From: Pelobacter propionicus DSM 2379
Lineage (GTDB): Bacteria; Desulfobacterota; Desulfuromonadia; Geobacterales; Pseudopelobacteraceae
Direction of reading: 5' to 3'
Assembly (NCBI RefSeq): GCF_000015045.1
Contig: NC_008609.1
Location: forward strand, 2,952,001 to 3,016,000
Length of the DNA: 64,000 nt
Under the pieces are notes generated by a model. That model was not told the origin of the DNA. It made no database searches and saw nothing but the letters and a program-made list of their open reading frames with translations. Below are positions 5,187-54,314 of the stretch, piece after piece. Position 1 is the first letter of the stretch. The number at the start of each line of letters is the position of its first letter. The position numbers and the translations under genes are program-made.

Positions 5187-8100
5187 CTACGGTTCCTCCT
5201 TCGGCATTTCCACGGTTACGCCAACCCCCCCGGCGGGGAGGGCATGGACACGAAAGACCCCGCCGAACAACTCGGCGCGCTCCCGCATGATCGTCATCCC
5301 CCAGCCGGATGATTCAGGGTTCCGGGGTTCCAGCCCGCAAGCAAGCCCCCGACCATCGTCCGCAACCGAGAACAGGAGCAGGCCGTCGTCATGGGCCAGC
5401 CAGAGATTCACGTTTCGGGCAGCCGCGTGCTTGGCCACATTGGTGAGCGCCTCCTGGGCGATGCGGAACAGGGCGATCTCCCGTTCGGCGGCAACGCGGG
5501 GAAGTTCATCATCAACCTGCACCCTCACATCGATGCCGGTGCGCCGCGAGAACAGTTCGCCATACCAGCGCAGGGCCGCTGCCAGACCATAGTCGTCCAG
5601 CACCGGCGGCCGCAAGGTGGACATGATGTTCCTGACGGTGCGGCTGACGCTCTCCAGCATCCTGCCGGAGTCTTCCACCCGTGTCCTCAGGGGAGCGGCC
5701 GTCTCCAACGGCAGGCTGGTGCCGATGAGCGACAGGTTGATGCCCAGCACGGTCAGGTCGCGACCGATCTCGTCGTGCAGTTCCGCGGCAACGACCTTCC
5801 GGAGATTCTCCTCCACGTCCATGATCCGGCGGGCATAGGCGCGCAGGTCGTCTTCGGCCTGCCTCCGTTCGGTGACATCATGGAGCGTGCCCACCATGCG
5901 CAGGGGGGAGCCATCAACACCACACTCCACCCTGCCCAGCATGTGCAGCCAGCGCACCTCCCCGTCGTTGATCCGCACAATGCGGAACTCCCGGTCGAAT
6001 AGCAGGCGCCGTTGGATCACATCCTGCAGGTAGCCCTCCATCTCCTTCCGGTGGGCCGGATGGATGAATGCCAGCCACCCTGCCCTGGTGCGTTCATACC
6101 GTGCATCGGCACCGCATATCCTGTCAGCCGCGGCACTGGTCACACAGCGGTCCTCGGGAATGGAGTAGACGAAACTCCCCAGATGGGCAAGTTCCTGTGC
6201 CTCGCGCAATGACTGTTCGCTACGGGAAAGGGCTTCATCCACCATCAGTTTTGACAGCGCGATGGCCGCGTAATCCACCAGCCTCTCCAGCAGGGTGATT
6301 TTTTCGACGGTGAAACACCCCTTACGGGTATCGCCCAACTGCAGCAGCCCCAGGATATCGCCGCGGGAGCGCATCGGCAGCAGGGCAACCGACTCGTACC
6401 CCCGCAGGTTACAGCGGTTGCAGATCAGGGCTTCCCGGCCAGACTCCACGGAATTTCGCGACAGCTCCCGAGCGCAGTTCGTCCAGAAGCTGCCCCGGGC
6501 GGTGAAGAGCTGACTGTCGGAATCGAAACTGCCGGCGAGGACTCTTCCGCACAGGCAGGCAAAAATCCAGCCGGCGGCGCCATGGCAAAGCGGCCGATCA
6601 TGCGAGTCGCCAGCATCGGCAACGTCTCCCGCCACTGCGGAATAATGGAGGCAGCCACCTCCCTCATACCCGGAAAAATCATCATCCCCCAGCAACCTCA
6701 GGGTCACGACCCCACAGCCGGTCATCTCCCTGAAGAAGCGGTCAAGACTGAAAACCAGTTCCTCCACGCCGGCGGACAGGTTGCACAAACGCAAAAGCTC
6801 GATGGTTGCCTTCTGTGCTGCCTCGATCAGCGTGCGTTCGGTGATGTCATGCCCCACTCCGATGACGCCAATCACCCGGCCATCGGCATCGAAGCGCGGA
6901 ATCTTGGTGATACTCAGCAGGCGGTATCCGCTGCGGGTCGGCACGCTCTCCTCCAGGGTCTCGGCCCGGCCGGTGGCCATGACCCGCCGACTGTTTTCCA
7001 TGATCGCGTCCGCATCGTCCTGAACAGAGTAGAGCTGGCCGGAATGCCTTCCCAGCACCTCCCGCGCCGGTTTCCCCAACAGCTGCAACAGGGCCGGGTT
7101 AACCAGAATAAAGCGCCCGTCAATATCCTTGACAAAGATGATCTCCTCGGCGCCGTTGACGACCGCCTGCAGCAATTGCTGGTTCTCGCGCAGGTCCGCC
7201 TCGGCCCGTTTGCGCGGGGTGATGTCGCGTCCCACTGACTGGGTTTCCAGCAGCCGGCCCTGAGCGTCGAAGATCCCCCGATTGACGAACTGCATCCAGC
7301 GCACCTCCCCCGAGGCGGTATGGACCTGGTTTTCCACGATAACCACGGGGTTCGCGGGGGAGAGGGCAGCCAGACGTTCCTCGATGAGCGGTATGTCGTC
7401 GTCGAAAGCGATCGGTTGCCAGGTTTTCCCCACCAGTTCATCCCAGGTTCCCCCGAACACCCGGCAGTACACGGGGTTGACGAAGCTGAGCGTCCCGTCA
7501 GGCGCGAAGCGGCAGATCAGCTCGGTCTGGTCATCCACCACGCTGCGGTAACGCTGCTCGCTCTGGTGCAACAGTTCCTGGGCCAGGTCACGCGCCGCCA
7601 GACGCTCCCGGGCAAGGTCCGACATCCGCATCAACGACTTGGCGACGTCATCAACCTCCCGCAGGCCGGAACAGGGCATGGACTCCAGGGATTCGCCACG
7701 CCCCAGCGCCAGGGCCGGCCTCAGCAGTGACCGGATCGAGCGGGTGACGTTCCGTCCGATCACCATTGCCAGCGCCACACCGGCAATGGACAGGAACAGC
7801 GCACCTGCAAGGGCCCAGGCCAGCCAGCGGTGCAGCTCGCCCGTCACCGTACTGCCCGGAACCCCGATCACCACCACCCAGTTGGCCAGGGATGTTCTGC
7901 TGAAAGTGGTGAACAAGGGATCCCCCTCAAGGCTGACCGTCCTGACCATCCCCGTTGCCGACCTGGTGACGGCATCGCGCAGAACGCTACACCACCGGTG
8001 CCCCACGAAACACTGCGGCTGGCGGGTCCTGGTAACCACCATCCCCCCGGAATCAAGTATGGCTCCGAACATTTCTCCCGACAGCAGCCGCCGGGAGAGG

Positions 8101-46242: not shown

Positions 46243-47214
46243 ATGAAAAACGAAGACTCTCTGCTGGACAACGGGTTTTCCCTGGATGAGCCTCATGCCG
46301 CTTCGGAACTGGTTGCCAACGACACCGAAGAGCCGTCGACGTTCAGCGAAGAAGAAGAGGGCAGCGATGACCATGCCGAGGCGGAGCTGCCCCCGGCGGT
46401 GCTGGAAACCTTTGACGACGCCATCAAGATCTATCTGCGGGACATCCAGCGCACCCCGCTTTTGACCGCCGAGCAGGAAAAGGAGGTGGCCCGGCAGATA
46501 GAGAAGGGTGACATGGCCGCCCGCAACAAGATGATCGAGTCCAACCTCAGGTTGGTGGTCAAGATCGCCAAACGCTACATCAACCGCGGCCTCCCCTTCC
46601 TGGACCTGATCGAGGAGGGCAACCTGGGGCTGATCAAGGCGGTGGAGCGCTTCAACCTGGCCAAAGAGTGCCGCTTTTCCACCTACGCCACCTGGTGGAT
46701 ACGCCAGGCCATCGATCGGGCACTGGTCAACCAGTCCCGCACCATCCGCCTGCCGGTTCATGTATCAGACGACATCAACCGCATGGCCAAGGTCACCCGC
46801 CGGCTGTCCCAGACCCTGCAACGTGAGCCCCATGCCCATGAGATCGCCGAGGAGATGAACGTCAAACTGGCCTATGTGCGCAGGCTGATGACCCTCTTGC
46901 GGCGCACCTGTTCCATGGAGACGCCCATCGGCGACGGCAGCGACTACTTCCTGATCGACACCATCGAAGACACCTCCATGGTCGCCCCGTCGGACCTGCT
47001 GGAGAACATCGATCGCTACGAGCAGATCTCCGAGCACTTCAAGGAGTTGAGCGAAAGCGAACAGAAGATCCTGGCGCTGCGCTTCGGCCTGGACGACAAG
47101 GAACCCCAAACCCTGGACACCATCGGCCGAAGCTTTGGCGTAACCAGGGAGCGCATCCGCCAGATCGAGGCCAAGTCTCTGGAAAAGCTGTACGCCTGCG
47201 TGAAGCCCACCTAG
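46243..47214 (+). CDS. rpoS: RNA polymerase sigma factor RpoS
   Basis: This 323-residue sigma-70-family factor directs stationary-phase and stress transcription. Seen: an acidic N-terminal region, region 1.2 ([20 protein letters not shown]), region 2 with [12 protein letters not shown] and [17 protein letters not shown], region 3, and region 4 with [20 protein letters not shown]. The absence of the large non-conserved insert of RpoD and linkage to surE and pcm support RpoS. A 182-base leader separates it from pcm, so post-transcriptional control is possible. The ribosome-binding site is AAAAGGGGG. Confidence 0.95.
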
Positions 47215-47275
47215 CCGGCAAAGCACGGAGAAGCGGACCAAGCCGAACAATCAAACACAGAGGAGCATTCCCCGT

Positions 47276-47794
47276 ATGATGGAAGACCTGAAGAGCATCA
47301 TTCGCGACATCCCCGATTTTCCCAAGAAGGGTATCGTATTCAAGGATATAACCACCCTGCTGCAGGATGCCCAGTCCTATCAGCGCATGATCGACCTGAT
47401 AGCACACCGCTACGTGGGGCAACGCGTTGACAAGGTGGTGGGGGTGGAGGCACGCGGCTTTATAATCGGCGCCGCCCTGGCCTATAAGCTGTGCGCCGGC
47501 GTGGTACTGGTGCGCAAACCGGGCAAGCTCCCCTCGGAGACCTTCAGCAAGACCTACTCCCTGGAGTACGGCACCGACACCCTGGAAATTCACCGCGACG
47601 CCATCAAACCGGGCGAGCGGGTGCTGATCGCAGACGACCTGCTGGCAACCGGTGGCACCATGGCGGCCGTGGTGGACATGGTGCTGAGCATGAGGGCCGA
47701 AATAGTGGATTGCTGCTTCATGACCGAACTCAACTTCCTCAACGGCCGCTCCAAGCTACCGGCCGGCAAGGTATACTCGCTGCTCAACTTCTGA
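47276..47794 (+). CDS. apt: Adenine phosphoribosyltransferase
   Basis: This enzyme salvages adenine by coupling it to PRPP to give AMP. It has 172 residues, typical for Apt. Motifs: [15 protein letters not shown] near the N-terminus, [14 protein letters not shown], and the PRPP loop [16 protein letters not shown]. The gene lies 61 bases after rpoS with a GAGGAG ribosome-binding site. A second ATG directly follows the first, so the start is uncertain by one codon. Confidence 0.97.
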
Positions 47795-47849
47795 TCGATG
47801 GGCATCCGCATGACACCAGCAGTGCCTCGCCGTCCACAGCGAAATACAG

Positions 47850-47878
47850 TTGAAAGCACCGCGCAACTCTGGTATACA
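47850..47878 (+). promoter_or_regulatory. Promoter of tRNA-Arg
   Basis: TTGAAA (47850) and TATACA (47873) are 17 bases apart and end 18 bases before the mature tRNA. The same block recurs at 49649-49677. Confidence 0.8.
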
Positions 47879-47896
47879 TAGCTCTCTTTCCCACCT

Positions 47897-47973
47897 GTCC
47901 CCGTAGCTCAGCCGGATAGAGCACTTCCCTCCTAAGGAAGGGGTCGGACGTTCGAATCGTCTCGGGGACGCCA
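47897..47973 (+). tRNA. tRNA-Arg (anticodon CCT)
   Basis: The 77-base gene folds into a full cloverleaf. The acceptor arms GTCCCCG and CGGGGAC pair perfectly. The anticodon stem CTTCC/GGAAG holds the loop CTCCTAA with anticodon CCT. The T loop reads TTCGAAT and the 3' CCA is encoded. Confidence 0.97.
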
Positions 47974-47979
47974 AATTTT

Positions 47980-48016
47980 AAAAAGGTCATTTCCGCTCCC
48001 GGAAGTGACCTTTTTT
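47980..48016 (+). terminator. Terminator after tRNA-Arg
   Basis: Two 16-base arms (47980-47995, 48000-48015) pair with one G-U around a 4-base loop, and a six-T tract ends the right arm. It starts seven bases after the tRNA CCA. Confidence 0.88.
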
Positions 48017-48205
48017 CTTTCGTACTCCCGGTTTGATTCCGCAAGCAGATCAAAGTGTTTCCTGAAGTTTGGCCTGAACTCCCCACTGCCGAAAGTGGAG
48101 TTCGAATACACCTGACTAAGCAATTTGCGCTTTTCATCGGAAACCTGCCGCACATACAGGCTGGAGGCCTTTTGAGCGAGTTCGAGTAAACGCATTCGTC
48201 TCTTG
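48017..48205 (-). pseudogene. Remnant of a serine recombinase C-terminus
   Basis: On the minus strand this encodes LELAQKASSLYVRQVSDEKR and then a FGSGEFRPNFRKHFDLLAES segment. Both resemble, from memory, the final part of large serine recombinases of phages and integrative elements (ELAQ...EKRKLL...SN.T...P.YRKPFDLL). The catalytic N-terminal domain is absent, and upstream codons lose the similarity. Its position right behind a tRNA gene suggests the residue of an element once integrated here. The rest of 48206-48365 shows no gene. Confidence 0.55.
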
Positions 48206-48365
48206 ACAAGAGGATACCGGATGAAGCTTATTACCAAGGACTGAAGCAGGTGCAGCGGGCGACCTGACACCAAAAACGACAAAACATCAGGTTTGTCTCC
48301 CCCTCGACCACATCAGGTTAGGCCACCTCCACCCGGACAGCGCTGCCAGGAAAGGATTGCGAAAG

Positions 48366-49586
48366 ATGACGACCCCACGAAAGAAGATCCACTGGCTGAA
48401 GACCCGGTGGCAATTCCTTAGATATTTGATATGTCGGCGCTTTTATGACAAAACCACGGCAATTGCCGTAACGGGCAGCTGTGGCAAGACCAGCACCACC
48501 CATTTTCTGGGAAAAATCCTCTCGGACAGAGACTCATGCCGCATTGGCATCTTATTCAACTGCCGGAAGGCTATTATAAAAAACCTGCGCCGGGTGAACA
48601 GCTCCCACCGTTTTGTGCTCCAGGAAGTGGGGGTAGAAGGGACGGGATGCATGAATGAAAGATTACCTCTACTTCGTCCCCGCATCGGCATTGTGACAAG
48701 TGTCGGCCAGGACCATTACTGCAACTTTCGGACGCTGGAGGCAACCGCGTTCGAAAAAGGAAAGCTGATCGAATTTCTCCCAGAATCCGGAGTGGCCGTA
48801 CTCAACGCCGATGATCCCCATGTGCTCGCCATGGCCCGGCGTTCCAAGGCGCGCGTCCTGACCTACGGGCTATGGGAGGAAGCGGACGTGCGCGGCAGCG
48901 ACATACGCTGCGCCTGGCCGGAACGCCTGTCACTGGCCGTTACGTACCAGGGTGAATCCGTACGCATCGAGACCGGTTTGTTCGGAAGCCTGCTGGCCAG
49001 TTCCATCCTGGCGGCAGTCTGCGGCGCCCTTGCGGCCGGGATCGACCTGAAGCAGTGTGCCGCGTCCCTTCACGCCGTGGAGAGTTTTCCGCGCAGGATG
49101 ACGATCCACGCCACCTCGCAACGGGCTTGGTACATCTGCGACACAGCCAAAGCTCCGTACTGGACTGTTGCCAAGGTGCTCGAGCCGATGACCGATGCCG
49201 CTGCTCCCCGAAAGACGGTCGTGTTCGGCTCGTTTTCAGATACATCAGGCTCATCCTCAAGCAAATACCGCAGCATGGCCAGAGAGGCGCTGAACGTTGC
49301 GGACAGGGTCTTTTTCGTTGGAAACAAGGCTCAGCACATTAGAAGGTTGCTCACCCCCGAGACGGATGGGCGGCTCTTCATGGTGGAATCACTCCAGGCG
49401 GCAGCCCGTCTTTTGGCCGAGGATGTGGTTGCCGATGAGCTCATCCTGATCAAATCCTCGAACATGGAACATGCCGAACGCCTGTATTTCAGTCAAGACC
49501 GTCTCCTTAACTGCTGGAAGCCAACCTGCCGCCAGTCCATCAGCTGCGAACACTGTCCGGAGAGCGGGCTGCGGGCCTCATCCTGA
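48366..49586 (+). CDS. Stand-alone Mur ligase-like protein
   Basis: This 406-residue protein has the Mur ligase ATP-binding loop AVTGSCGKTSTTHFLGKIL (about 33-51) and the central-domain elements LQEVGVEGTG, GIVTSVGQDH and VLNADDPHV. It lacks the N-terminal UDP-sugar-binding domain of MurC-F and starts directly at the ATPase domain, like the ligases of cyanophycin or polyglutamate synthesis. It would form an amide bond with ATP; the substrates are unknown. The C-terminus carries four cysteines (CWKPTC..., CEHC), a possible metal site unusual for the family. The ATG at 48366 has an AGGAAAGG ribosome-binding site; a TTG at 48357 is less suitable. It is not part of a dcw cluster. Confidence 0.8.
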   Translation: MTTPRKKIHWLKTRWQFLRYLICRRFYDKTTAIAVTGSCGKTSTTHFLGKILSDRDSCRIGILFNCRKAIIKNLRRVNSSHRFVLQEVGVEGTGCMNERLPLLRPRIGIVTSVGQDHYCNFRTLEATAFEKGKLIEFLPESGVAVLNADDPHVLAMARRSKARVLTYGLWEEADVRGSDIRCAWPERLSLAVTYQGESVRIETGLFGSLLASSILAAVCGALAAGIDLKQCAASLHAVESFPRRMTIHATSQRAWYICDTAKAPYWTVAKVLEPMTDAAAPRKTVVFGSFSDTSGSSSSKYRSMAREALNVADRVFFVGNKAQHIRRLLTPETDGRLFMVESLQAAARLLAEDVVADELILIKSSNMEHAERLYFSQDRLLNCWKPTCRQSISCEHCPESGLRASS

Positions 49587-49648
49587 CAATGCCGTTCCCG
49601 CTCCAACGGCTTCCCGGGAATCCTGGGCACGGAACCGCCGTTTCCTGG

Positions 49649-49677
49649 TTGAAAGCTCGGCCCAACTCTGCTATACA
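49649..49677 (+). promoter_or_regulatory. Second copy of the tRNA-type promoter
   Basis: TTGAAA (49649) and TATACA (49672) are spaced by 17 bases, and the whole block matches the tRNA-Arg promoter with about five differences in 30 bases. The next coding start is about 200 bases away and is preceded by a terminator. Confidence 0.75.
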
Positions 49678-49683
49678 TGACCC

Positions 49684-49801
49684 GTTCTTTCTCACTGTCC
49701 CTCGTAAAAAGAGAAACGTCCATTCTGGCGCACAGGGAGAGTGATGGACACAGGAGCCGGCACGATAAGCACTTACAAGATCATATTGTAGGTGCTTTTT
49801 T
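49684..49801 (+). ncRNA. Candidate small RNA between promoter and terminator
   Basis: A transcript of about 118 bases is predicted between the promoter above and a terminator. It contains no good open frame with a ribosome-binding site. Internal pairing is possible (GTCCAT near 49718 with ATGGAC near 49744). It does not fold into a tRNA, but the promoter shared with tRNA-Arg suggests it replaced, or derives from, a tRNA-like unit. Confidence 0.5.
49767..49801 (+). terminator. Terminator of the candidate small RNA
   Basis: A 12-base stem (49767-49778 with 49786-49797, one G-U) with a 7-base loop is followed by a T run. It lies upstream of lptF, so it also insulates that operon. Confidence 0.85.
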
Positions 49802-49880
49802 ACTGCCTCATACTGCGGAAACCGCCGCCGTTGAGATTACCCGTCACGATGTTCACTGACCGCGAAAGACCGAGATTACG

Positions 49881-50984
49881 TTGATTATCGAACGTTACAT
49901 AGTGCGTGAAATCTGCGCGCCCCTGGTGGTTATCTGCACGGTGCTGATCATGATCTTCTCCGGCTTCAGCGCCGTCCGGTTCCTCAACGACGCCGTCAAC
50001 GGCCTGCTCTCGGGCGGAACGGTCGTCGCCCTGGTCTCGCTCAAGGTGTTGATCGCCCTGGAAGTCCTGATTCCTGTCACGCTCTATCTGGCCATCGTTC
50101 TCGCCCTCAGCCGTCTGTATGCCGATGGCGAGATCACGGCCATGGAGGCGGGCGGCCTCAGCCAGAAAAAGTTGATCAGCGCTGTTCTCTTCCTCGCCAT
50201 TCTGCTTGCCCTTATGGTTACCGGACTTTCCCTCCATGCACGCCCCTGGGCCTACGGGAAGATGTATCTGCTGGAGACCAGGGGGCAGAACGAGTTCGAT
50301 ATCGCCAAGGTGGAAGCCGGCCGGTTCTACGAACTCAGCCACAATCTGGTGTTCTTTGCCGAAAAGCTCGACCCGGCCAGAAACCAAGCCCGTAATGTGT
50401 GGGTGTGGGAATTCGGACCGGAAAAGCGCAGGGTGACCAGCGCCCGATCAGCATTCCAGACAAACGGCCCGGGCGAGGGGCAAAAGGCAATCGTCTTCCA
50501 GGAAGGCTCCCACTATAGCCTGAACCTGAAAACCGGAACGGATCACCTGGTCGGGTTTCAGGAAAACGTGCTCCAGCTGGAACCGCCCCAAATCCCGCCC
50601 GCAAAATACAGGCGCAAGGCGGCCTCCACGGAACATCTGGCCACGTCCACGGATCCGGCGGACATCGCGGAGCTGCAGTGGCGCTTTTCCACCGGCATCT
50701 CCACCGTGCTGATGGCCCTGCTGGCGATCCCCTTGAGCCGGGTCGCTCCGCGGCGCGGCAAATACGGCAAGGTGGTCGCGGCCATCATCCTCTTCTTCGT
50801 CATTTACAATCTGAGCCTGATCGCCAAGACCTGGGTTGAAAAGCAGGTGGTGGGCGCCGTGCCCGGCATCTGGTGGGTCACGCTGCTGAATGCCGGTCTG
50901 GTGCTGTTCCTGCTCCCCGTCCAGAGCCCCCTGCGGAAGCTCCGACTGCGCCGGGTCCGAACCAGCGGAGGGGGAACGCCGTGA
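49881..50984 (+). CDS. lptF: LPS export permease LptF
   Basis: This is one of two inner-membrane permease subunits that, with LptB ATPase, extract lipopolysaccharide toward the outer membrane. It has 367 residues with three N-terminal TMs, a periplasmic beta-jellyroll-like domain (about 125-260) and three C-terminal TMs. The N-terminus IIERYIVREI and the LARLY-like segment VLALSRLYADGEITAMEAGG are typical. A TTG start at 49881 is used because it gives the expected N-terminus. The stop overlaps the lptG start by four bases. A small-RNA-like unit lies just upstream. Confidence 0.93.
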   Translation: MIIERYIVREICAPLVVICTVLIMIFSGFSAVRFLNDAVNGLLSGGTVVALVSLKVLIALEVLIPVTLYLAIVLALSRLYADGEITAMEAGGLSQKKLISAVLFLAILLALMVTGLSLHARPWAYGKMYLLETRGQNEFDIAKVEAGRFYELSHNLVFFAEKLDPARNQARNVWVWEFGPEKRRVTSARSAFQTNGPGEGQKAIVFQEGSHYSLNLKTGTDHLVGFQENVLQLEPPQIPPAKYRRKAASTEHLATSTDPADIAELQWRFSTGISTVLMALLAIPLSRVAPRRGKYGKVVAAIILFFVIYNLSLIAKTWVEKQVVGAVPGIWWVTLLNAGLVLFLLPVQSPLRKLRLRRVRTSGGGTP

Positions 50985-52045
50985 AGATTATCGATCGTTA
51001 CCTGGGCCGCAGCTTTGCAAGCTGCTGGCTCAGCGTCAATCTGATTCTGGCCGGGCTGCTCAGTTTTTTCGAACTGGCCAAACAGCTGGACGACATCGGC
51101 AAGGGGCGCTACGACGTAAGCGACGCCCTGCTGTACGTGAGCCTGACACTTCCCGGACGCATGCTGGAGATGGCTCCACCCAGCGCTCTTTTGGGAAGCA
51201 TTATCGCCTTGGGATTGCTGGCAAAGAACCAGGAACTGACCGCGCTGCGGGCGGGCGGGATATCCGTCCAGCGCATCGGCTGGACCTTCATGAAGCCCGC
51301 CGTTCTCACGCTGCTCGTTCTTCTGCTGGGAGCCCAGTTCATCATCCCCACCCTCGAACAGACCGCCTGGACCCGGCGCGAAACAGCTCTTTCGAAATCG
51401 GGAACGCTCCTGCCACGGGGCGGTTTCTGGACCAGAGACGAGCGGCGCTTCATCAACCTGCGGACCGCCCGGGACAACGGAGTACAGGCCGTGGATATCT
51501 ACGAATTCGATAACCGGGATGCCCTGACCGGTTACATCCATGGCAGGGAAACACGCATCGGAGCCAATGGAAACTGGGAACTGCACCATGTGCTGCGCAA
51601 GGAGATCACGGAACAGGGAGATTCGGTCCGCGCACTGCCCAGGCTGGTCCTCCCCCACCTGCTCACCCCTCAACAGACAGCCGCACTGACGCTCCCCCCC
51701 CAGACCCTCTCCATTTCGGAGCTGTCAGGCACCATCAGCAACCTCCAGAAGAGGGAGCAGAATGCCGGGCGCTACCTGCTGGCGCTCTGGCAGAAGCTGA
51801 CCCTGCCGGTGATTACGGCGGCAATGATAATGCTCTCCCTCCCCCTGGTATGCAGACCGGCCCGCAGCGCCAGCCTTGGCTGGCATATCATGATCGGTGC
51901 CATCTTCGGCGTGGTGTTCTTCTACCTCAACCAGATACTGGGTTACACCGGCCTTATCCTCCAGGTTTCTCCGTTCTGGACCACCCTCTTCCCCGCCCTG
52001 GCCGTTCTCGCCGGAGGCGCAATCCTGACGAGAAGAATCGTCTAA
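50981..52045 (+). CDS. lptG: LPS export permease LptG
   Basis: This partner of LptF has 354 residues with the same layout: N-terminal KIIDRYLGRSF, the coupling segment LGLLAKNQELTALRAGGISV, a periplasmic domain (about 125-250) and three C-terminal TMs. The GTG at 50981 overlaps the lptF stop (GTGA) and follows GGAGG, so the two are translationally coupled. Its stop overlaps the convergent phosphoesterase stop. Confidence 0.94.
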   Translation: MKIIDRYLGRSFASCWLSVNLILAGLLSFFELAKQLDDIGKGRYDVSDALLYVSLTLPGRMLEMAPPSALLGSIIALGLLAKNQELTALRAGGISVQRIGWTFMKPAVLTLLVLLLGAQFIIPTLEQTAWTRRETALSKSGTLLPRGGFWTRDERRFINLRTARDNGVQAVDIYEFDNRDALTGYIHGRETRIGANGNWELHHVLRKEITEQGDSVRALPRLVLPHLLTPQQTAALTLPPQTLSISELSGTISNLQKREQNAGRYLLALWQKLTLPVITAAMIMLSLPLVCRPARSASLGWHIMIGAIFGVVFFYLNQILGYTGLILQVSPFWTTLFPALAVLAGGAILTRRIV

Positions 52046-53040
52046 CCGGCTGTTCTCCCGATCGCAGGTGCGGGCAGAAGCAGTTCCCGCTCCCGGGCTA
52101 GCACGAAGCGGCTTTCCCGGTGGGAGTAGATACGAACGCTCAGCAGCACCTCCCATACGTCTCCCCTGCGCCGGAAACGGTACAGGGTGTAGCTGGCGGT
52201 GCGGAGCGGAGCCGACTGCGAGGACGAGGACGAGGACGAGGAAACGCCGAAGACCGGCACCGTCCCGGCAACCAGTTCCCGCTCCATGGATACGTGCGCG
52301 TGACCGTGCAGGATCAGCTCGGCCCCCTGGCGGCCGATGACCGCGGCAAAACCGCTGGCGTCGGTCAGGCGCTTGCGCCAGGCAATACTGCCGGGAACGG
52401 GTGGATGGTGGAGCAGGACAACGCGCAGGAGGCCGCGCCGCCCGGTCTGTTCCAGCAGATCTTCAAGTCTGTCCAGCTGTTCTTTGCCCAGACTGCCCAC
52501 AGCCATGAAGGGCAGGCTCGGTCGGGCAGTGGAGAGCCCGATCAATGCCACGCCCCCCCGCACGCGCAGGCGCGGATAGACGCCGTCCGCCACTGCCCCG
52601 TCCCCGGCCAGGTAATCGGCCCATCTGCCAAAGGTCTCACGCCAGGGGGCAGCCACATAGCACTCATGATTTCCGGGCACGACCATGACCCTCGCCGGCG
52701 AACCCACCCGCTCCAGCCAGCGAGCCGCCTGACGGAACTCGTCGGGCAAGCCCAGGTTTGTCAGGTCACCGGTTATGGCCACATGGTCCGGGGCTGCCTG
52801 GGCCAGATCGTTCAGCAATGCGTCGAGGACGTGGGGGCAATGAATGTGACGGCGGCGGCGATACCAGGAGAAGTAGCCCAGCAGGCGTTTGTTCAGAAGA
52901 TCACGGGGGTGAACCCCGGGCAGAGGGGAGAGGTGCGGATCGGAGAGATGGGCGAGAACAAACGGACCGCCATCACACAGACCGGCACCCGCATCACTGT
53001 CACCGCCCCGCACGGCAGGATTTGGCTTTACAAAATGCAT
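52042..53040 (-). CDS. Calcineurin-like metallophosphoesterase
   Basis: This 332-residue enzyme has the five metal-binding blocks of the family: LAHLSDPHLS, AITGDLTNLG, VVPGNHECY, VLLHHPPVPG and ILHGHAHVS. It belongs to the Icc/CpdA-like or YkuE/LpxH-like wider group; the substrate cannot be assigned. Its position next to lipid and LPS genes makes a phosphate on a lipid intermediate a reasonable guess. Near residue 275 there is a run of eight serines encoded by a hexanucleotide repeat (about 52220-52243). The ATG at 53040 is the best candidate but has no clear ribosome-binding site. Confidence 0.88.
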   Translation of the reverse strand: MHFVKPNPAVRGGDSDAGAGLCDGGPFVLAHLSDPHLSPLPGVHPRDLLNKRLLGYFSWYRRRRHIHCPHVLDALLNDLAQAAPDHVAITGDLTNLGLPDEFRQAARWLERVGSPARVMVVPGNHECYVAAPWRETFGRWADYLAGDGAVADGVYPRLRVRGGVALIGLSTARPSLPFMAVGSLGKEQLDRLEDLLEQTGRRGLLRVVLLHHPPVPGSIAWRKRLTDASGFAAVIGRQGAELILHGHAHVSMERELVAGTVPVFGVSSSSSSSSQSAPLRTASYTLYRFRRRGDVWEVLLSVRIYSHRESRFVLARERELLLPAPAIGRTAG

Positions 53041-53123
53041 CGGGCCATAATAAAGTGTAATGTTTTTTTTTACAATCGACTTTGTCCGTCGACTTGAGAC
53101 CACTAACCATTCCGAGAATCCCT

Positions 53124-54314
53124 ATGACCGTACACGCCATGATCTCCGCGGAGAGCCCCGTTCAACTCTGGGGGCTCTCCAGTCGCCAGCGTCTGGAACG
53201 CATGCTGAAAAAAATGAACGTCGTTAACTGGACTGATCAGCCCGACACAGTCCCCCCCGGGGACACGCTCCTGCTGCTGCGCGGTGACTACCTGTACGAC
53301 GAGCGCCTGATCCGCGGCCTGCTCCAGAAACCCGGCACCGTCCTCCGGGCGGGAGACAAGCCGGTGGCCGCCCATGTCGAGACCGGCGATGCAGCGGGGA
53401 GCCTCGCCCTTCTCGATGGCTCGAAACATGCCGGCGAGTTTCCGGACTTCTGTTTCGAAACCCCGCAGTCGCTGGGGGTCAATCACCAGATCACGCTTCG
53501 CAAGGTAGACGCTCCCTACCTGCTGCCGATCAGCCCGAAAAACCAGCGCAGACTGGAGCAGCGCCTCTTCTCAGGCTCCTACAAGGGGGTCACCGACCTG
53601 GTTACCAAATGGCTCTGGCCCCGTCCCGCCCAGGTGGTGACCCGTTTCTGCGCCAACAACGGCATCACTCCCAATCAGGTGACCTCCCTAAGCCTGGTCC
53701 TAGTCATCATCGCCGGCCTGCTGTTCTACCAGGGCTCCTTCGCCCTCGGCCTTCTGGCAGCCTGGGGCATGACCTTCCTCGACACCGTGGACGGCAAACT
53801 GGCCAGGGTCACGGTCAACTCCAGCCAGTTCGGAAACATATTCGACCATGCCATCGACCTGATATCCCCCCCGCTCTGGTACCTGGTCTGGGGGCTGGGG
53901 CTATCCACCTGGCAACCGGGGATCGACCTGTCGCTCAAGTCCGCCTTCGGCCTGATCTTCATCGGCTACATCGCCGGTCGCATCGTGGAGGGGATTTTCA
54001 AGCAGTTCCTCGAATCCTCCGGTATCTTCTGCTGGCGCCCCTTCGACTCCTATTTCCGCCTGATCACCGGGAGACGCAACCCCAACCTGATCCTGCTCAG
54101 CGCAAGCCTCCTGGTCGGACGGCCCGACCAAGGGTTGCTGGCGGTGACCATCTGGACCCTGATCTCCAGCATCATCCTGGTCGTGCGCCTGCTCATGGGC
54201 TTCTGCATGCACCTGACCGGCACTCCCCTGCGTTCCTGGCTCCTGGACGTCGACCCCGCGACCCCCAACCCCTCACTGACCCAGCGCTGCTTCACCAACA
54301 TTGCCCGTGACTAG
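53124..54314 (+). CDS. CDP-alcohol phosphatidyltransferase with nucleotidyltransferase-like N-terminus
   Basis: The C-terminal half (about 150-385) is a multi-TM CDP-alcohol phosphatidyltransferase with the full active-site signature D-x2-DG-x2-AR-x8-G-x3-D-x3-D (DTVDGKLARVTVNSSQFGNI, then FDHAID). It would transfer an activated phosphatidyl or phospho-alcohol group to a hydroxyl acceptor in the membrane. The N-terminal 140 residues (LLLLRGDYLYDERLIRGLL) resemble the later part of sugar-phosphate nucleotidyltransferases. This recalls the fused inositol-phosphate cytidylyltransferase/DIPP-synthase proteins, but the nucleotide-binding GxGxRL start is missing, so this domain may be inactive. The acceptor is unknown; inositol or glycerol phosphate is possible. 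The stop overlaps the next gene's start. The ATG at 53124 is a choice among several. Confidence 0.88.
   Translation: MTVHAMISAESPVQLWGLSSRQRLERMLKKMNVVNWTDQPDTVPPGDTLLLLRGDYLYDERLIRGLLQKPGTVLRAGDKPVAAHVETGDAAGSLALLDGSKHAGEFPDFCFETPQSLGVNHQITLRKVDAPYLLPISPKNQRRLEQRLFSGSYKGVTDLVTKWLWPRPAQVVTRFCANNGITPNQVTSLSLVLVIIAGLLFYQGSFALGLLAAWGMTFLDTVDGKLARVTVNSSQFGNIFDHAIDLISPPLWYLVWGLGLSTWQPGIDLSLKSAFGLIFIGYIAGRIVEGIFKQFLESSGIFCWRPFDSYFRLITGRRNPNLILLSASLLVGRPDQGLLAVTIWTLISSIILVVRLLMGFCMHLTGTPLRSWLLDVDPATPNPSLTQRCFTNIARD

Follow-up and report, generated by a model that had tools for sequence, protein, structure and literature searches.

About 1.8 kb downstream of the promoter of an intact tRNA-Arg(CCU) gene there is a second copy of that promoter, which is followed by a leader, a core of 60 bases and an intrinsic terminator (Table 1). 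This orphan unit probably represents a tRNA-Arg(CCU) transcription unit that was duplicated and broken through mobile DNA, and it would give rise to an RNA of roughly 118 bases without a selected function. The duplicate would have kept the promoter, the leader and about 9 bases of the tRNA 5' end, beyond which come 60 unrelated bases and then a terminator of the type associated with tRNA genes. It would most likely have originated when mobile DNA integrated, excised or was rearranged at tRNA-Arg(CCU). Transcription would begin about 6 bases past the -10 box and end at the terminator, giving the predicted RNA of roughly 118 bases. Judged from its sequence, the orphan unit is probably still transcribed, and the RNA itself probably lacks a selected function. 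The unit changes little by itself unless a functional transcript exists. It does suggest how ready-made pairs of promoter and terminator can remain where mobile elements come and go at a tRNA gene, and new RNA genes could plausibly be built from such pairs.

The window, by which we mean the whole 64-kb stretch of DNA that was analysed, covers positions 2,952,001-3,016,000 of a 4,008,000-base contig in a genome of 4,241,119 bases. Gene names were assigned from sequence resemblance, except for those based on Pfam. The genes surE, pcm, an rpoS-like gene and apt precede tRNA-Arg(CCU) in the same order in three related genomes (G001, G015 and G024), and this arrangement therefore belongs to the backbone. 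Between the intact tRNA gene and the orphan unit are found a probable recombinase remnant and then a Mur-ligase-like gene, which shares 32% identity with its best match in 96 other related genomes. A literature search returned no paper that was, by its title, about this unit.

Table 1. Features of the tRNA-Arg(CCU) region and the orphan unit, in window positions
Feature	Position	Strand	Basis or remark
Promoter of intact tRNA-Arg(CCU)	47849-47879	+	Motif matches, upstream comparison
tRNA-Arg(CCU), intact	47897-47973	+	ARAGORN; sole ARAGORN tRNA in the 64-kb window
Probable remnant, 3' end of a large serine recombinase gene	47950-48193	-	Reading of the translation and match to G001
Terminator of intact tRNA-Arg(CCU)	47980-48020	+	
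Mur-ligase-like gene	48366-49586	+	Pfam, similarity search
Second copy of the tRNA-Arg(CCU) promoter (orphan)	49648-49678	+	TTGAAA 49649-49654, TATACA 49672-49677
Leader and vestige of tRNA 5' end (GTCCC-t-CGTA, 49697-49706)	49679-49706	+	Gapped local alignment
60-base core of orphan unit, without recognisable tRNA similarity	49707-49766	+	
15-codon ATG frame with GGGAG upstream, probably chance	49744-49791	+	Shuffle control
Intrinsic terminator of orphan unit	49767-49801	+	Stem fold, matches in relatives
lptF of accessory lptF-lptG-phosphoesterase-CDP-alcohol transferase cluster	49881-50984	+	

The promoter copy and the reach of its homology

The promoter block GTTGAAAGC..CAACTCTGnTATACAT occurs in two copies that lie 1,799 bp apart and are identical at 27 of 31 bases, which bears out the recurrence described in the earlier note. 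The runner-up site for the block in the window, on either strand, reaches 19/31. A genome-wide search for TTGAAA-N16..18-TATACA gave three matches, with none for the reversed control, and two of the three are this pair; the 3-kb locus of the third (L034) contains no tRNA. When the 34 bases around the orphan promoter were compared with the 75 bases upstream of each of the 45 tRNAs of the same genome, tRNA-Arg(CCU) matched at 27/34 and no other exceeded 19/34. What argues for a promoter is the homology with a conserved promoter of tRNA genes; neither copy passes a simple sigma-70 scan (0 found), which demands a T at the sixth base of the second hexamer.

Within the family, the tRNA-Arg(CCU) gene often carries its own type of promoter, TTGAA-N12-CTCTGnTATA. 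When searched for as TTGAA-N11..13-CTCTGnTATA, this motif is found at 43 sites in 39 of the 76 family genomes, against one site in the reversed control, and for 37 of the 43 a tRNA-Arg(CCU) match is found no more than 200 bases away, in one case a 5' fragment. The remaining six sites comprise the orphan copy, four sites with N11 spacing and one site in G106. The last has the exact motif spacing and no tRNA-Arg, and it was set aside as the DNA 3' of it is, by eye, unlike the orphan unit. Two N12-spaced sites occur together only in the present genome among the 76 family genomes searched. The orphan promoter keeps every base of the family motif and, beyond its likeness to the promoter of its own tRNA-Arg gene, matches the 35 other distinct N12 promoters at no more than 24/31. 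The tRNA-Arg(CCU) promoter of this genome is in turn closer to the orphan than to its counterpart in the congener G001 (25/31). These distances, behind which stand few bases, would fit copying within this lineage.

The homology between the two copies begins one base before the -35 box, and the 99 bases upstream show no relation between the copies, scoring 12 where shuffles average 14.4. In the other direction it continues, with small gaps, through the leader and into the tRNA, whose opening bases are present as GTCCC-CGTA, and ends at around tRNA base 9. Past CGTA the alignment with the tRNA-Arg body is no better than with shuffles, and no cloverleaf in 49550-49920 scores with the tRNA model (RF00005, E up to 10). 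Both the homology and its abrupt end are seen directly in the alignment, and the latter points to a breakpoint, caused by replacement or rearrangement, rather than to slow decay. The idea that the unit is the relic of a second tRNA stands as far as the tRNA-Arg(CCU)-specific promoter, the homology into the tRNA and the tRNA-type terminator are concerned, but no tRNA body is left.

Terminator, core and conservation

A good terminator was correctly placed 90 bases after the promoter block. It consists of a 12-pair stem at 49767-49797 followed by T's, and the stretch 49762-49802 folds at -15.1 kcal/mol, with a z of -6.8 against shuffles. Terminator-like sites as such are not in excess in this region, as a scan of 47000-51500 found 6 against 5.0 in shuffles (sd 2.0). 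The 35-base orphan terminator matches many places in relatives, and 21 loci from among the best-scoring matches were scanned for tRNAs. At 14 of these an intact tRNA, which in five cases is tRNA-Arg(CCU), ends about 10 bases or less before the terminator. The other seven comprise five with a tRNA 3' fragment just before the terminator, as judged by eye, and two without one, of which one is partly masked. Since the promoter is of the tRNA type and the terminator is usually found after tRNAs, the unit is tRNA-type at either end and it is the tRNA that is missing.

The sequence between these ends has few features of its own. Leader and core together fold like shuffles (z -0.3); the z of -2.9 for the whole unit, better than for shuffles, is due mostly to the terminator. 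An apparent H-type pseudoknot in 49694-49750, noticed by eye, was rejected, because this stretch is no more stably folded than its shuffles (z -0.3). The core was also considered as part of another tRNA, and rejected as such: against the 43 distinct tRNA sequences of this genome its best sense score is 17, below the shuffle mean of 18.5, and its best antisense score, for which there is no separate shuffle control, is 21. That no open frame lies between promoter and terminator was nearly right. The exception is the 15-codon frame listed in Table 1, and a Shine-Dalgarno-like frame of at least 12 codons also arises in 142 of 2000 single-base shuffles.

A lack of conservation of the promoter-terminator pair had been named beforehand as one result that would refute the proposal, and the unit was indeed not found in 75 family genomes or at six lptF loci. 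Among 140 other genomes of the order, none contains a match to leader and core at E up to 0.01. At the same threshold the unit without its terminator, compared with the 75 other family genomes, finds nothing beyond the promoter of tRNA-Arg in G012 and a 19-base match in G025. The between-species conservation by which a small RNA might be recognised is thus absent from these genomes. Searched against Rfam, the unit gives three matches at E up to 10, all far under the cut-offs, and it belongs to no known small RNA family at the curated cut-offs. Leader and core have no match among phage sequences, and the one weak match among plasmids is to the terminator part alone. A recurrent match to 19-22 bases of the core was taken as chance: at 16 of 17 relative loci, 18 of the 19 bases lie in one conserved stretch, which by eye looks like one gene on the opposite strand, and 10 loci of this match contain no Rfam match.

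Mobile DNA at tRNA-Arg(CCU)

Relics of tRNA genes left at the integration sites of mobile elements are of a known kind. The orphan unit is like them in being a partial tRNA unit near an intact gene, from which accessory genes and a probable recombinase remnant separate it. It differs in the part retained, as the relics read in relatives are 3' tRNA fragments, whereas the orphan unit keeps the promoter and about 9 bases of the 5' end. Partial copies of this gene are observed directly in the family: in 23 of the 76 genomes there is a match that covers just the 3' portion of tRNA-Arg(CCU), and two of these genomes have no full match. In each of the three such copies that were read, the final 45 tRNA bases are kept without change; these copies lie 12 kb (G024), 28.6 kb (G015) and 24 kb (G016) from the intact gene. 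A different arrangement is found in G042 (contig C59, 38262-38357; L203, L204), where a motif promoter is followed by a 48-base 5' fragment of tRNA-Arg(CCU) and then, by eye, by a hairpin with T's. This fragment sits after the apparent end of apt, the intact tRNA being 25 kb off with a different upstream sequence, and perhaps reflects an element that brought its own tRNA 5' part. It shares with the orphan unit the tRNA-Arg motif promoter, the tRNA 5' part and the hairpin soon afterwards, and differs in the 48 tRNA bases left, in following the apparent end of apt and in its distance from the intact tRNA. Overall, tRNA-Arg(CCU) seems to be a recurrent integration site in this family.

The DNA after the intact tRNA-Arg(CCU) matches a long open frame in G001, at 84% over a stretch that starts at the promoter. 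The G001 frame, which comes right after tRNA-Arg(CCU), reads as a large serine recombinase in our own reading of its translation. The corresponding remnant frame of 116 residues has no Pfam match. A second recombinase remnant, 88% identical to the first, follows tRNA-Glu(TTC) in the same genome (L144); a unit similar to the orphan was sought there too, and the 9.3 kb compared contain none. Terminators like that of the intact tRNA-Arg(CCU) gene are found after tRNA-Arg in G001, G004, G008, G027 and G058, as well as after the tRNA-Glu(TTC) of this genome. The homology extends past the terminator in G001, G027, G058 and at tRNA-Glu(TTC) but not in G004 and G008, and terminators of this type may be of element-borne origin.

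Some observations count against the mobile-DNA route. The expected repeat of the tRNA 3' end, the hallmark of an attR site, is absent from the orphan unit, and a like unit is missing both from the 16 kb compared in G001 and from the 9.3 kb after the tRNA-Glu remnant. The genome holds no second copy of the tRNA-Arg 3' part, save weak and partial matches at two other tRNA genes. In G001, the 16 kb onward from tRNA-Arg match the window only to 48192 and contain no orphan-type unit.

Alternative readings and the lptF cluster

Intergenic small RNA genes that have their own promoter and intrinsic terminator are well known, and the orphan unit is like them in architecture and size. It might accordingly be a young, lineage-specific small RNA gene, in which a 118-base RNA, transcribed from a captured tRNA-Arg promoter and ending at the unit's own terminator, acts by base-pairing on other RNAs. 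This we consider unlikely. The promoter copy is intact, down to the last base of the family motif, the terminator is strong, no long frame intervenes and the whole unit folds better than its shuffles. Moreover, the promoter boxes and the terminator stem have remained intact despite differences at 4 of 31 promoter bases and at more in the leader, which could reflect selection and speaks against a mere relic. The small RNA put forward in the earlier note is contradicted outright by none of these results, but the core is unmatched in the 140 other genomes of the order that were searched, the Rfam matches fall far short and, once the terminator is removed, no structure in excess of shuffles is left. 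Quite unlikely, in our estimation, is the related idea of a small RNA gene at birth, whereby mobile traffic enclosed random DNA between a strong promoter of tRNA type and a tRNA terminator to yield a highly expressed, species-specific RNA. If true, this newborn RNA may control the adjoining, newly acquired cell-envelope cluster.

The same cluster figures in a reading that we regard as improbable, namely that the captured promoter drives the acquired lptF-lptG genes and that the terminator, perhaps together with the 15-codon frame, acts as an attenuator or leaky stop. In its favour, the terminator lies on the same strand, about 80 bases before lptF, and the short frame ends inside the terminator stem. 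Against it, the unit is absent from the 700 bases upstream of lptF at the six closest of the 16 orthologue loci found, and the promoter motif is present at 0 of the 16, so that upstream conservation with lptF was not seen; frames similar to the short one also arise in shuffles, as described above. There remains a chance likeness of two promoters, to which we give almost no credence. Promoter hexamers of such quality are common in bacterial genomes, and the hexamers alone would be unremarkable, but the identity between the copies takes in the spacer, the alignment runs on through the leader into the tRNA, and the runner-up in 64 kb lies far behind, which together in effect refute it. A broken duplicate of the tRNA-Arg(CCU) unit is the reading that we favour.

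Several features of the lptF region can be noted in their own right. The closest lptF loci in named genomes are in three Geobacter metagenome assemblies, with identities of 71, 70 and 70%. The order lptF, lptG, phosphoesterase and CDP-alcohol transferase (49881-54314) is also found at L071, L074, L075 and L080, and the genes are possibly a cell-envelope lipid cluster. The lptF-lptG pair within 49881-54314 is an accessory, second one, and another lptF-like gene is present in the same genome (C3:1754748-1755680). In one Geobacter assembly (L072) a tRNA-Val CAC gene at 5699-5773 lies about 230 bases before lptF, and from this case the lptF cluster may tend to sit behind tRNA genes. Finally, the lptF start is TTG at 49881 and at the aligned position in L072, L073, L074, L075 and L080, while L071 has TTA.
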